Positions 5,753-55,272 of a stretch of 64,000 nucleotides of DNA are shown piece after piece; position 1 is the first letter of the stretch, and each line of letters starts with the position of its first letter. Source of the stretch: Methylobacterium aquaticum (GTDB lineage: Bacteria; Pseudomonadota; Alphaproteobacteria; Rhizobiales; Beijerinckiaceae); contig NZ_CP043627.1 of assembly GCF_016804325.1 (NCBI RefSeq), positions 1,687,001 to 1,751,000 on the forward strand. Direction: 5' to 3'. Below the pieces are notes generated by a model. The model searched no databases. It was not told where the DNA came from and saw only the letters and a program-made list of their open reading frames with translations. The position numbers and the translations under genes are program-made.

Positions 5753-6061
5753 GCGGTTCTCCTTGGGCTGCTCGATTCAGCACGCGGGCGTGACCGGATG
5801 GTGACGGCGGAGGGAACATCATCCTCTACCGGCCTTGGAGTTTGTTCGAGTTGGCTAACCGAAGTGAAGCCCTCGATGTCATCCCGGGGCCGCGAAAGCG
5901 GAACCCGGGATCCATAACCGCTGACGATGCCGAATGGAGCGGAACGCTGATCGCAATATCCTGGCGCGTCGGCGGTTATGGATCCCGGGTTCTCGTCTTC
6001 GACGAGCCCCGGGATGACGAGGAGAGTTGTCGAAGTCGGTGCCAGATCACGGGATTGCGCC
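5753..6061. other. Intergenic region between the phn operon and oligopeptidase B
   Basis: No gene is seen in these 309 bases. They hold REP-like repeat copy A (5878-6018) and, upstream of the phn operon, a short AT-richer stretch that may contain its promoter; no convincing -35/-10 pair or Pho box could be picked by eye. Confidence 0.6.
5878..6018 (+). repeat. REP-like palindromic repeat, copy A
   Basis: A 141-base element with outer arms gtcatcccgggg... / ...ccccgggatgac and inner arms around cccgggatccataaccgc and its complement. Related copies are at 13533-13669 (reverse), 55133-55272 and 62778-62913. The left arm carries gccgcgaaagcgg and the right arm tcgtcttcgacga, so the element is directional. 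Homology with copy B extends about 45 bases further left (gttcgagttggc). Confidence 0.85.
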
Positions 6062-11364: not shown

Positions 11365-12105
11365 TCACTCCCAGCGCGGCACGGCGCCCCAGCCCGCCAG
11401 CGTGCGGTCGATCCAGGCCCGCTGCGGCCCGACCAGCACGCCCTGCGAGACGCCGCCGCACGCGGCTTTACCCGAACCGCTGGCCCAGGTGGTCACCGCG
11501 AGCACGCCGCCGGCGCCGGCGATCGGCCCGCCCGAATCGCCCTCGCAGGCGCCGGAGGCGGTCGCGCCCTTCAGCCAGACCAGGATGCGGCTCGGGCCGT
11601 AGGGCTCGACCAGCGGCAGGGTCGCGGTGCGGAAGGTGCCGGTGCTGCGGTGGTCGCCGGGCCGCGCCACGCCGTAGCCCCCGAGCGTCAGCGGCGTGCC
11701 GGCGGCGACCGGCGCCCCGGCGAGGGCGGCCGGGACGAAGCGGGCCGGCAGGGGGGCGTCGGTGCGCAGGAGCGCAAGGTCGATCGAGCGCCGCCGCCCG
11801 GCGATGGCGCCGGCATCGTAGCCCGGATGCACCGCCCGGGCGGCGACGCCGAGGAGCACCGGCGAGCCGGCTTCGTCGCGAAAATGCACCCGGTGCTCGG
11901 CCCCGGGGGCGGCGCAATGGGCGGCGGTGAGCACCACGTCGCGGGCGAGCACGATGCCGGTACAGACCCCGCCGCGGGATGACAAAACCATCACGCTGGA
12001 GCGCGCGAGGGCGGCGTCGGGCGCCTCGCTCCCGCCGACGATCGCCTGGGCGGGGGTGGCGAGGGTGAGGAGGGCGGCGAGGAACGGGATGGGGAGGCGG
12101 ATCAC
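11365..12105 (-). CDS. Second secreted trypsin-like serine protease
   Basis: A 246-residue S1 protease starting at a GTG (12103-12105), VIRLPIPFLAALLTLATPAQ, a signal peptide cut just before IVGGSEAPDAA, the classical trypsin N-terminus. The triad is His in VVLTAAHCAAP, Asp in SIDLALLRTDAP and Ser in CEGDSGGPIAG. An open frame extends upstream to 12267, but those residues are low-complexity and would bury the signal peptide. It is transcribed towards the first protease, 123 bases away, with GC-rich hairpins between (e.g. 11296-11311). Confidence 0.9.
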   Translation of the reverse strand: MIRLPIPFLAALLTLATPAQAIVGGSEAPDAALARSSVMVLSSRGGVCTGIVLARDVVLTAAHCAAPGAEHRVHFRDEAGSPVLLGVAARAVHPGYDAGAIAGRRRSIDLALLRTDAPLPARFVPAALAGAPVAAGTPLTLGGYGVARPGDHRSTGTFRTATLPLVEPYGPSRILVWLKGATASGACEGDSGGPIAGAGGVLAVTTWASGSGKAACGGVSQGVLVGPQRAWIDRTLAGWGAVPRWE

Positions 12106-12328
12106 GTCGCTCTCGGGTCGGCGGGGGGATGGCTCTGCCCTGCCCGATCGGGCGCGGGAGGTCCAGGGTGGTGGGACCGGTGGGGCGACGACAGGATGGA
12201 GGCTCGACATTCTTGTCTGCATGAAAAATCTTGCAAGCGGGCTTTCACATGGCGAGATGACAGGCAAGGGTTATCTGGAAGCCTGTTCGATGGTCTTTCA
12301 CAGGTTTGACATCCTCGGCGTCATCAAC

Positions 12329-13309
12329 TCAGTTGGCTTCGGTTGCGAGCGCGATTTTTTGCTCCTCGGCGTAGGCATCGCGCAGGCGTGCGTTGGCGAT
12401 GACGAGGAGGCGTCGCATGATGGCGACGATCGCCACGATGGGCTTTTTGCCCGCTGCGATGAGGCGCTGGTAGGTGTCTTTGAGCACGGGGTTGAAGCGG
12501 GTAGCGGTCAGGGCGGGGAGGAACAGAGCCTGCTTGATCTCGGGCCGTCCGCCCTTTGTGCGTCGGTAGCGCTCGGTGGTCCCGCTCTGGTTGGGATGCG
12601 GGGCGAGTCCGGCCAGGGACGTCGCCTGGCGCCGGTCGATACGGCCGAGCTCGGGCATCAGGGCGAGCAGGATGATGGCAGAGGTGTCGCCGATGCCCTT
12701 GATCGAGGTCAGCGCCTTCTTGGCCCGGCTGAGCGCGGCGGCCTTGCGCAGGGTCTCGGCCATCGCCTCCTCGATCGCCTCGATCTGCTCGGACAGGGCG
12801 GTGATGAGGGTTTCCAGATAAGCCTGGACGGGTCCAGATCCCGGCGCGGCCAGACGATTGCGGTTGGCGGTGCGCTGAGCCACGAAGTCGGCGCGGGTGA
12901 GCACCAGGCTCTGGAGGTTTTCCTGATCGGGATCAGGGGCTTGCCAGCGGGCCAGGGAGGTGTGGCGCTCCCGGCCGTAAGCCGCCAGGGCCTTGGCGTC
13001 GAGGGCGTCGGTCTTGGCGAGGGTGCCGTAGGAGTGGATGAACGCCTTGACCTTGCGGGCGTCGGCGCGGTGGGCGGGGCATCCGACGGCGAGGAGAGCG
13101 GCCAGCAGAGCATCCTCGTAGCCGCCGGTGGCTTCGCAGATGACGAGGCAGGTCGCATCGAGGTCCGCTTTGGCGGCGAAGGCGGCGAGGTCCTTGGGCT
13201 TGTTGGGGATGGTGTGACGAGCGTTGCCGCGGCTGTCGTGGAGGACGATCTCGGCTTTGCCGACATCGGCTCCGATGAAGCGGGTGGGTGAGGTGGCGGG
13301 TTGGGTCAT
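12329..13309 (-). CDS. IS110-family transposase (DEDD recombinase)
   Basis: A 326-residue recombinase. The N-terminal RuvC-like DEDD domain shows FIGADVGKAEIVLHD, CLVICEATGGYEDAL and AKTDALDAKALAAYG. The C-terminal Tnp20 domain has LTSIKGIGDTSAIILL and the serine region HPNQSGTTERYRRTKGGRP. The reading frame is intact, so the element may be active. The protein acts with a bridge RNA encoded next to it in this family. Start MTQPATSPTRFIG at 13309. Confidence 0.95.
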   Translation of the reverse strand: MTQPATSPTRFIGADVGKAEIVLHDSRGNARHTIPNKPKDLAAFAAKADLDATCLVICEATGGYEDALLAALLAVGCPAHRADARKVKAFIHSYGTLAKTDALDAKALAAYGRERHTSLARWQAPDPDQENLQSLVLTRADFVAQRTANRNRLAAPGSGPVQAYLETLITALSEQIEAIEEAMAETLRKAAALSRAKKALTSIKGIGDTSAIILLALMPELGRIDRRQATSLAGLAPHPNQSGTTERYRRTKGGRPEIKQALFLPALTATRFNPVLKDTYQRLIAAGKKPIVAIVAIMRRLLVIANARLRDAYAEEQKIALATEAN

Positions 13310-13532
13310 CCGGGTCTATCCTGAGGCCGCTTGGGATTGTCTGCGGGCGTCGAGGAGAGGCCCAGGCAACTCATCAAGCGTGGCGAGGAATGCGGACCGG
13401 CGAGCCAGATGACGACGGGCGCGAGCCCCATCCCGGGACGCTCGACCGATCCGCGCCCGGTCCGGATGGCCATCCGGACCGGGCATCCCGCCGAGGCGGA
13501 ACGGGATCACTCTACAACCGAACCAACAGACA
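13310..13532 (-). ncRNA. Candidate bridge RNA region of the IS110 element
   Basis: The 223 bases between the transposase start and the element end hold no open frame of note. They contain a perfect 28-base palindrome at 13456-13483 (arms cccggtccggatg) and a second stem around atcccgcc...gggat (13485-13507). At 13429-13437 the sequence catcccggg is identical to the REP-like site next to the element. In the IS110 group the bridge RNA comes from exactly this position, and its guide loops match target and donor. The RNA assignment is inference. Confidence 0.5.
13456..13483. repeat. Perfect 28-base palindrome inside the IS110 non-coding region
   Basis: Arms cccggtccggatgg / ccatccggaccggg meet with no unpaired bases. 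As RNA it would form a stem of about twelve pairs with a tight loop; in the candidate bridge RNA it would be one of the main stem-loops. Confidence 0.8.
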
Positions 13533-13669
13533 ATCCCGGGGCTCGTCGAAGACGAGAACCCGGGATCCATAACCGCTGACAGTGAAGGAGAGGGCGGCCA
13601 GCATTCCGCTTCATCCTGCATCGTTGGCGGTTATGGATCCCGGGTTCCGCTGCGCGGCCCCAGGATGAC
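13533..13669 (-). repeat. REP-like palindromic repeat, copy B (abuts the IS110 element)
   Basis: Reverse-oriented relative to copy A. Its left side starts atcccggggctcgtcgaagac and lacks the terminal gtc present in copies A and C, where gacaatcccgggg replaces gtcatcccgggg. The right side ends caggatgac and similarity to copy A continues to about 13712 (ggccaactcgaac). The loss of only the outermost bases at the IS side is what an insertion into the element would leave. Confidence 0.8.
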
Positions 13670-13772
13670 ATCGAGTGTGTCAATGCGGTCGGCCAACTCG
13701 AACATATCTTGAATGAATGGAAAACTCCGGGATGATCCAGAACGTTGGAGCAACAGCGGCAAAAGGGCCACC

Positions 13773-14003
13773 ATGACCAGACGTCGGGCGAGCCTCCCTC
13801 CCCTCACCGACGCAGAAGAAGCGGAGATCCAGGCTGGCATTGCACAGGATTCCGACAATCCGGAGATCACGATGGAGCAATTTGCCCGGATGCGCCCCGC
13901 CGCCGAGGCGCTGCCGCCTACGCTCTACGCGGCCCTGACGCGCCGCCCTCCACATCCATTCCCCGCCCCGCGAGGTCCCGGCGCAAGGCGTCGACCGACG
14001 TGA
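13773..14003 (+). pseudogene. Truncated BrnA-like antitoxin remnant
   Basis: A 76-residue frame starting MTRRRASLPPLTDAEEAEIQ, then NPEITMEQFARMRPAAE and LPPTLYAALTRR. This resembles the N-terminal part of BrnA-type antitoxins. After about residue 57 the sequence turns into an unrelated Pro/Arg-rich tail, and the DNA-binding C-terminus is missing. No toxin gene is seen upstream; only about 100 bases separate it from repeat copy B. Its 3' end overlaps the convergent HAD hydrolase by 86 bases, as if a rearrangement had joined the two. Confidence 0.5.
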
Positions 14004-14565
14004 AATGGTGGGCGTGGAGCCCCGCTTCCCGCGCGCCCGCGACGTTCTCGGGCAGGTCGTCGGTGAACAGCACCGCCGACGGCCTCACCCCGAGACCTGC
14101 GAGGCAGCGCTGGTAGCAAACGACATCGGGCTTGGCCGTGCGGAACGAGGCGGAAGCGTAGATCCGATCCCCGAACAGGGGCCGCAGCTCCGGGCACAAC
14201 ACATCGATGTGCCCGGTCAGCAATTCCGAGTTGTTCGTCAGGATGGCGACCGCCGTCGTGGCCCGCAGCCGCTCTACCAGGGCGAGGACCTCCGTGTCGG
14301 GCGCCATCGCGGCGCGGCGCGCCGCCAGCCACTCCGTCAGGCTGACCGGATACCCGATCCGCTCGCCGAAGGCCTGGAGATAGGCCTGGGGCGAGAGAGC
14401 GCCGCTATCGCCCTGGAACTCCAGGCCGCTATCCCAGATCGCCGCATGGATGACGTCGGCCGGGATGCCGGTCATGCCCGACAGATAGTTGACGCGGCGG
14501 GCGCGGTCGTAGTGGTACAGGACGTTGTCGAGGTCGAACAACACGAGTTCGATGTCCGCGGCCAT
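13918..14565 (-). CDS. HAD-superfamily (HAD-IA) hydrolase
   Basis: A 215-residue cytosolic phosphatase-like protein. Motif I is ELVLFDLDNVLYHYD, motif II AVAILTNNSELL, motif III FRTAKPDVVCYQ and motif IV AVLFTDDLPENV. The mixed-helical cap lies between motifs I and II. This resembles the epoxide-hydrolase N-terminal/phosphoglycolate phosphatase branch; the substrate is unknown. Start MAADIELVLF at 14565, in preference to the ATG at 14622. The last residues are encoded opposite the truncated antitoxin frame. Confidence 0.88.
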   Translation of the reverse strand: MAADIELVLFDLDNVLYHYDRARRVNYLSGMTGIPADVIHAAIWDSGLEFQGDSGALSPQAYLQAFGERIGYPVSLTEWLAARRAAMAPDTEVLALVERLRATTAVAILTNNSELLTGHIDVLCPELRPLFGDRIYASASFRTAKPDVVCYQRCLAGLGVRPSAVLFTDDLPENVAGAREAGLHAHHFTSVDALRRDLAGRGMDVEGGASGPRRA

Positions 14566-55132: not shown

Positions 55133-55272
55133 GTCATCCCGGGGCCGCGTAGCGGAGCCCGGGATCCATAACCGACGAGGGTCATCAAGAAACAGGATCG
55201 CGTTCCGCTTCGTCCTGCAGCGTCAGCGGTTATGGATCCCGGGTTCTCGTCTTCGACGAGCCCCGGGATGAC
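55133..55272 (+). repeat. REP-like palindromic repeat, copy C
   Basis: Same orientation as copy A, with gtcatcccggggccgcg on the left and gacgagccccgggatgac on the right. Inner arms are cccgggatccataaccg and its complement. It lies between the convergent DUF4926 and MBL-fold genes, a typical REP position. Confidence 0.85.

Follow-up and report, generated by a model that had tools for sequence, protein, structure and literature searches.

A Methylobacterium IS110-group element with a candidate bridge RNA matching a REP edge, and guide-target covariation among its relatives

INTRODUCTION

Recombination guided by a bridge RNA is already known in the IS110 family, as is the targeting of REP sequences by one of its members, IS621 of Escherichia coli. 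IS621 has a DEDD/serine recombinase with catalytic residues D11, E60, D102, D105, and S241 (PMC11208158) and, at its upstream end, a bridge RNA comprising a 5' stem-loop, a target loop, and a donor loop. Covariation of guide and target has been described over thousands of IS110 elements (PMC11208160), and natural redirection of guides has been described for ISEc11 and ISXne4 (PMC11187229). REP targeting by ISPa11, ISPpu9, ISPpu10, and ISRm19 was reported from a genome survey in 2006 (PMC1525189).

Several of these elements come close to the one described here. ISRm19 of Sinorhizobium meliloti is likewise an alphaproteobacterial member of the IS110 family, and all four of its copies lie in REPs; the likeness is one of description, and the survey's passages on ISRm19 describe it without a guide RNA (PMC1525189). 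ISPpu9 and ISPpu10 of Pseudomonas also target REPs and are likened here by description as well (PMC1525189). ISPa11 of Pseudomonas is both RNA guided (by a seekRNA) and REP specific; unlike the present element, it is treated as a member of the IS1111 group, with a downstream non-coding region and guide halves in the other order (PMC11187229).

The element studied here lies in a 64,000-nt stretch of the Methylobacterium aquaticum genome (contig NZ_CP043627.1, positions 1,687,001 to 1,751,000), referred to below as the window. It resembles IS621 in having a DEDD/serine recombinase of nearly the same size, a candidate bridge RNA at the upstream end with a predicted 5' stem-loop, target loop, and donor loop, the same order and strands of the guides, a two-base core inside the target pairings, and a REP target. 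It differs in its core, which is AT rather than CT, in the REP edge that it uses (CCCGGG-AT-GAC), and in its alphaproteobacterial host; the two proteins are only distantly alike. A sequence-only reading of the locus had taken it for what looks like an independent case. That description holds for its different REP, its different guide, and a host distant from that of IS621, and not for REP targeting as such, since targeting by the IS110 family, including the alphaproteobacterial ISRm19, has been reported since 2006 (PMC1525189). As far as our literature searches show, the new features are the element, its REP and guide, its AT core, and a clade-wide, one-sided rewriting of the target half; neither element nor clade appeared in the titles and abstract openings, among the matches listed, for Methylobacterium IS110/REP and for bridge RNA/IS110/REP/seekRNA.

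RESULTS AND DISCUSSION

The element and its recombinase

The element is 1,210 bp long, with the AT core counted once, and lies on the minus strand at 12323-13532. It consists of a recombinase open reading frame and an upstream non-coding region of 223 nt. Its left end, TGTCTG..., lies at 13532, and its right end, ...GAGTTGAT, lies at 12323. The right end is minimal, with only 6 bases beyond the stop codon, and the stop codon itself, TGA, is the start of the donor sequence TGAGTTGAT. The interval 12329-13669, to which the sequence-only reading had assigned the locus, does contain the reading frame and a REP-like pair. It mixes element with target, because the REP-like pair extending to 13669 is flank.

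The recombinase frame (12329-13309, minus strand) is uninterrupted and encodes 326 amino acids, intact as had been claimed. The protein matched PF01548 (75.6 bits) and PF02371 (65.5 bits), the DEDD RuvC-like and Transposase_20 domains, and both scores exceeded the cut-off. Residues D15, E59, D101, and D104 were invariant across 15 aligned recombinases; S242-G243 is present in the window protein, and an S-G motif was found by pattern in 14 of the 15, the exception being L114. D15, E59, D101, D104, and S242 are presumed to correspond to the catalytic residues of IS621. Among solved structures, the closest sequence was the ISCro4 transposase (PDB 9t56; E = 1.5e-26, 97 bits), a likeness at the protein level, and IS621 (8wt6) matched at E = 1.4e-24 (90 bits). 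The nearest relative, L067 from Methylobacterium platani, is 87% identical, as is a match in another genome of the same genus (G035).

With its long upstream non-coding region and short right end, the element has the layout of the IS110 group, to which, within the IS110 family, its sequence assigns it. The IS1111 group was recognized by a downstream non-coding region and subterminal inverted repeats of 7-17 bp. Here the non-coding region is upstream, and only CCAAC/GTTGG (5 bp, read by eye) flanks the joined ends.

The host genome (7.28 Mb, 5 contigs) contains five copies, all full length. They differ at a single position, with the variant base common to copies 4 and 5, and their junctions are identical throughout, with CCCGGGAT to the left of each copy and GAC to its right. 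A recombinase match at E ≤ 1e-60 was found in at least 4 of 111 genomes of the genus, own genome counted, among the best candidates of each genome (at most 19). Plasmid records gave no match to the element and none to the recombinase protein at 1e-40. The genus-wide count might suggest a bridge-RNA element that is no longer active and whose copies are relics. Against this, the five full-length copies differ at one position, and the reading frame, catalytic residues, and ends are intact. Such near-identical, intact copies point to recent spread, and we regard the loss of activity as improbable.

Guide matches in the non-coding region

The string CATCCCGGG, which the sequence-only reading had placed at 13429-13437, is present in the non-coding region at those positions. 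We identified four candidate guides there, all on the minus strand. The left target guide (LTG), CCCGGGAT, at 13430-13437, equals the left flank plus the AT core, that is, the left target half at 13533-13540 (minus strand; AT core at 13533-13534), which forms the outer edge of REP-like copy B. The right target guide (RTG), GTCGTCATC, at 13408-13416, is complementary to the target sequence GATGAC(G); the right target half, ATGAC, lies at 12320-12324 (minus strand; AT core at 12323-12324). The left donor guide (LDG), TGAGTTG, at 13367-13373, equals the element's right end. The right donor guide (RDG), AGACAATC, at 13336-13343, is complementary to GATTGTCT, found where the two ends are joined. 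In IS621, LTG, RTG, LDG, and RDG follow one another in the same order and on the same strands (PMC11208160). The window LDG stops short of the core, TGAGTTG being followed by CC where the element end has AT, and at the ninth left-guide position a U stands opposite a G that pairs with C, which may allow a G-U pair (by eye).

The numbers of exact occurrences expected by chance in 223 nt were 0.009, 0.03, 0.005, and 0.0006 for LTG, RTG, LDG, and RDG, respectively; the first is the expectation for the 8-mer CCCGGGAT at the base composition of the window. None of 20,000 base shuffles contained all four strings, which had been picked after the matches were seen. A search of Rfam with positions 11500-14500 returned no match up to E = 1.

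Predicted RNA structure

The non-coding region (13310-13532) folded at -110.5 kcal/mol, compared with a mean of -99.2 kcal/mol for shuffled sequences (z = -2.3), and none of 200 shuffles did as well. The sequence-only reading had anticipated two guide loops in the minus-strand fold of this region, and both were predicted: the first matches the empty REP edge and the second matches the joined element ends, each on both strands. The putative bridge RNA region, delimited by the fold and a 21-sequence alignment, runs on the minus strand from the left-end non-coding sequence to the closing stem of the donor loop (13329-13532). It includes a perfect palindrome at 13455-13484, the probable 5' stem-loop, which had been described as 28 bases long and in fact measures 30 bp, with two 15-nt arms and no spacer. 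The fold predicts, on the same strand, a target-binding stem-loop in which the two target guides face each other (13392-13454; helices 2 and 3) and a donor-binding stem-loop with the closing stem GCTTG/CAAGC (13329-13379; helices 4 and 5, with little covariation). The guides are partly paired with each other in the predicted folds. In the minimum-energy fold, the target guides occupy opposite sides of one stem-loop, with 4 of the 8 left-guide bases pairing with the start of the right-guide stretch.

The tested structure was written from the window sequence and scored on the 21-row alignment. It was paired in 88.8% of 812 cells, and 26 of its 40 pairs showed two-sided changes. Two-sided pairs made up 12 of 13 in the 5' hairpin (helix 1), 11 of 14 in the target stem, and 1 of 9 in the donor helices. 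None of 500 shuffles attained any of five measures, and the best slid version was 46.8% paired; because the structure derives from the window sequence and the alignment rows are related, these shuffle counts, like the permutation counts given below, do not represent independent events. The target stem-loop folds of the 21 relatives shared a closing stem, a two-sided loop, and an apical hairpin (by eye), with cross-loop pairing in several. In 20 of the 21 (all but L087), at least 3 of the 5 pairs of the stem closing the donor loop were predicted, and the donor guides again partly paired together. RNAalifold, run on the same alignment, returned the 5' hairpin, the inner stems of the target loop, and the apical stem of the donor loop and also paired columns 1-5 with columns 213-217, a pairing that we read as the invariant complementarity between the left end and the RDG and not as a stem. 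These predictions fit the loop architecture of a bridge RNA, with two loops, target then donor, each addressing both strands.

REP-like repeats and target sites in the host genome

The element lies at the outer edge of REP-like inverted pair copy B, at about 13533-13669. Other REP-like copies were found at about 5878-6018 and 55133-55272, and their outer edges are GTCATCCCGGG/CCCGGGATGAC at 5878, 6008, 55133, and 55262. In copy B, which the sequence-only reading had matched to these copies up to its outermost bases, one edge is broken by the element, and the far edge, CCCAGGATGAC, is one base off. We counted 131 occurrences of the 11-base site CCCGGGATGAC in the host genome and 1 of the reversed control pattern. 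When the first 30 sites in genome order were inspected, ATCCCGG or TCCCGGG lay within 45 bases upstream in 28 (a loose rule, applied without a shuffled control); at least one of the 30, L040, resembles chance. The 131 edge sites thus have the character of REP/BIME repeats, which are many dispersed hairpin units, often in inverted pairs. REPs would be the usual target because the genome offers these 131 intact sites, nearly all of those examined being in REP-like hairpins. The inner side of the REP arm in the window copies, CCCGGGATCC, fits the left guide and misfits the right guide, and none of the five element copies is inserted there.

It had been asked whether all copies abut this REP. All five have the same 11-base target, and copies 1 to 4 have a REP hairpin arm upstream on the left (an 8-nt inverted arm, equalled or bettered by no more than 5 of 300 shuffles). 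To the left of copy 5 (L005) there is no REP hairpin, the best inverted arm being 4 nt. This copy does not refute the guide reading, because the guide calls for precisely the sequence at which it is inserted.

Empty sites and an inferred inversion

The joined flanks of the copies were searched in the 111 genus genomes, taking the few best candidates per genome. Base-by-base reading covered the copy 5/copy 2 site in four relatives and the copy 4 site in two. In all four, the sequence to the left of copy 5 runs directly into that to the right of copy 2, the two overlapping by the target. This empty site, which is not a REP, reads CCCGGGATGAC in three relatives and CCCGGGACGAC, a variant of the target core, in the fourth (L156/L174, G023). 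By coordinates, the same flanks are neighbours in at least seven more genomes (G008, G018, G073, G079, G081, G084, and G088). The copy 4 site, GCCCCGGGATGAC, is unbroken and contains CCCGGGATGAC in both relatives read. For copy 1, no match covering the right flank was found outside its own genome among the best 4 candidates per genome; a 60-base match in G001 touches it. The empty sites read CCCGGGAT-GAC without interruption (with the core variant in 1 of 6). The target therefore includes GAC, the element inserts precisely, and its core is AT. Comparison of empty with filled sites gives a short core without a longer target duplication. One original site, then, lacks the REP and has the same 11 bases, and what is recognized is therefore the short sequence and not the hairpin.

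Copies 2 (L002) and 5 are in opposite orientation about 737 kb apart, and their flanks are exchanged relative to the relatives, which suggests an inversion of 0.74 Mb between them. Of seven relatives searched, one (G071) has the complementary flanks (copy 2 left and copy 5 right) together, and no intact copy of this REP edge lies between them there. G063 and G105 have these flanks far apart, and the other four have them on separate contigs. Because the complementary flanks are mostly apart and the edge is not intact in G071, the inversion is inferred only.

Covariation of guide and flank among relatives

The alignment used above (A1; 21 rows) comprised the window element (L001), L149, and 19 of 80 relative loci, in which the left-end signature precedes the gene. 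The relatives are 42-87% identical in the best segment (L149, 68%); more distant loci (about 29-40% identical) were left out. The signature pattern also matched L104, L130, L136, and L144, which were judged by eye to be chance and excluded, as were L082 and L127 (left ends lost or rearranged), L123 (cut), and L086 (a different left end). L148 was presumed to be the same element as L069 and treated as such. A class-wide search of 385 genomes, limited to the best 5 candidates or fewer in each, added L150 and L151 from one genome; they were left out because that genome presumably resembles the one carrying L078 and L081.

For each element, the left guide column of A1 was set against the bases that precede the left end. 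Over the 21 elements, 118 of 122 non-core positions agreed, whereas permuted pairings averaged 72.2 and never exceeded 97 (0 of 20,000 as good). With the 9 distinct complete guide-flank pairs, 68 of 72 positions agreed, compared with 46.9 when permuted (maximum, 64; 0 of 20,000). By site type, the left guides were CCCGGG, CTCGCA, CTCGCG, CTCAGG, CACGGG, and ACAGGA. L083 was a misfit (2 of 6 left positions); L085 and L149 each had a single left mismatch, and L073 and L077 each had one within the core part of the guide.

The right guide is nearly fixed on a shared GTCAT edge and contains CGTCATC in all elements except L077 and L085, the latter on a contig without the right end. In L077, the right guide is CCTCATC and the right flank is GATGAGG, a parallel change that is the sole case of right-guide covariation. 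The right-end motif was found in 16 elements, and the right flank fit the right guide in 13 of them, including L068, whose motif lies 238 nt past the stop codon and is doubtful as the true end. The misfits were L067 (ACCGGG), L069 (TTGTGA), and L078 (one mismatch). By these comparisons, guide and target covary among the relatives on the left, and the right guide appears nearly invariant.

The arms of a 13-bp inverted repeat (GAAGGGCCCCCGG/CCGGGGGCCCTTC, read by eye) enclose L067, which has AC in place of the AT core and is likely an off-target insertion, made via the left half, into a hairpin such as a terminator. L084, L085, and L087 form a subgroup with RDG AGACAATG and LDG GACTTGA, from which different right ends are predicted; these ends were not found in their contigs. 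Among 15 relatives, the inverted-arm test of the left flanks gave a clear result, with no more than 5 of 300 shuffles doing as well, in four (L071, L080, L084, and L087). It was not clear in the other 11, in which the arms may be imperfect or the test too crude.

The covariation bears on the possibility that the recombinase itself recognizes the hairpin or sequence of the REP, the non-coding matches being incidental. Four of the five copies do lie at a REP hairpin, and insertion at REPs is also reported for other families, namely, IS3, IS4, IS5, and IS256 (PMC1525189). However, the original site of L005, empty in relatives, has the same 11 bases and no hairpin, and related recombinases (42-87% identical) use different left targets that their own RNA fits with at most one mismatch in all but L083 of the 21. 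Given the non-REP original site and the guide covariation, we reject the idea that targeting works through recognition of the hairpin by the protein, and we give this explanation very little credence.

A chance match of CATCCCGGG is ruled out by the covariation together with its low expected occurrence. That the guide-like strings are captured fragments of flanking REPs, or chance in GC-rich DNA, is scarcely credible: the window is about 71% GC, CCCGGG is common, and ATCCCGGG occurs 17 times in the 64 kb against 6.6 expected, yet the same alignment columns hold different matching strings in relatives, within a conserved two-sided loop, and the donor strings correspond to the ends of the element itself.

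Matching sites in the host genomes of relatives

We counted three reconstituted targets in 20 host genomes, in which reversed controls gave at most 3 occurrences per genome. In the 8 hosts of elements with CTCGCAAT guides, CTCGCAATGAC occurred 9, 161, 11, 532, 1, 59, 19, and 34 times; in the 12 other hosts, it occurred 0 to 15 times in ten, 135 times in G039, and 41 times in G507. The site ACAGGAATGAC occurred 36, 2, and 33 times in the three hosts with its guide and 0 to 3 times in all others. CCCGGGATGAC occurred 131 and 62 times in the two hosts with its guide and 0 to 11 times in the others, except for G495 (29) and G505 (99). By these counts, the matching site is present in at least 9 copies in 11 of 13 hosts of these guides. 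G500 (1) and G509 (2) contradict a strict guide-host rule, and some hosts are rich in a site class that their element does not use.

Proposed mechanism and significance

We conclude that the window element, an insertion sequence of the IS110 group with ends GAGTTG-AT and TGTCTG, very probably inserts at CCCGGG-AT-GAC through recombination guided by a bridge RNA. Targeting of the REP edge by a bridge RNA, as the sequence-only reading proposed, is supported by four guide matches, two predicted stem-loops, and the covariation of left guide and flank. By this account, an excised circle would join ...GAGTTGAT to TGTCTG..., and the joined ends would create TTGATT, a -35-like box, 17 bases from TAGAGT. 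A transcript from this putative promoter at the circle junction would contain the bridge RNA. On the model of IS621, the recombinase would hold the REP edge by the first loop and its own joined ends by the second and would then exchange strands at the AT core. When the 21 elements were scored for their best -10-like hexamer at a spacing of 15-19, the mean was 3.86 of 6, compared with 2.82 for shuffled sequences, with most rows individually unremarkable; L068 and L080 have TATAAT, and the window matches at 4 of 6 positions. These scores hint, weakly, at a promoter that would form only in the circle.

A wider proposal is that a clade of IS110 elements has specialized on REP edges across alphaproteobacteria, keeping the RTG/GTCAT half, the core, and largely the donor ends and repeatedly rewriting the LTG to the REP class of the host. 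The bridge RNA would then record moves between REP families, and REPs would be shared, renewable landing sites. We find this proposal about evenly balanced between acceptance and doubt. The data further suggest that the hairpin itself is not what is recognized and that REPs may collect such elements by offering many copies of one short sequence. Close and distant bridge recombinases with different target guides and a nearly fixed donor form a natural series in which one-sided reprogramming and its limits are testable, and they offer new recombinase/RNA pairs with an AT core.

Other mobile and repeated sequences in the host genome

REP/BIME repeats are associated with RAYTs, Y1 transposases that the REP flanks. 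The sole Y1-type transposase found in the host genome, L152 (C1:1462155-1462511; PF01797), has an open frame of 153 amino acids. In its 3.4-kb locus, on the strand given, no CCCGGGAT, ATCCCGGG, or GTCATCC was found. The right flank of copy 5 carries a repeat of about 107 bp, of which the host genome has at least four further copies and which (query positions 236-345) also matches many genomes of the genus.
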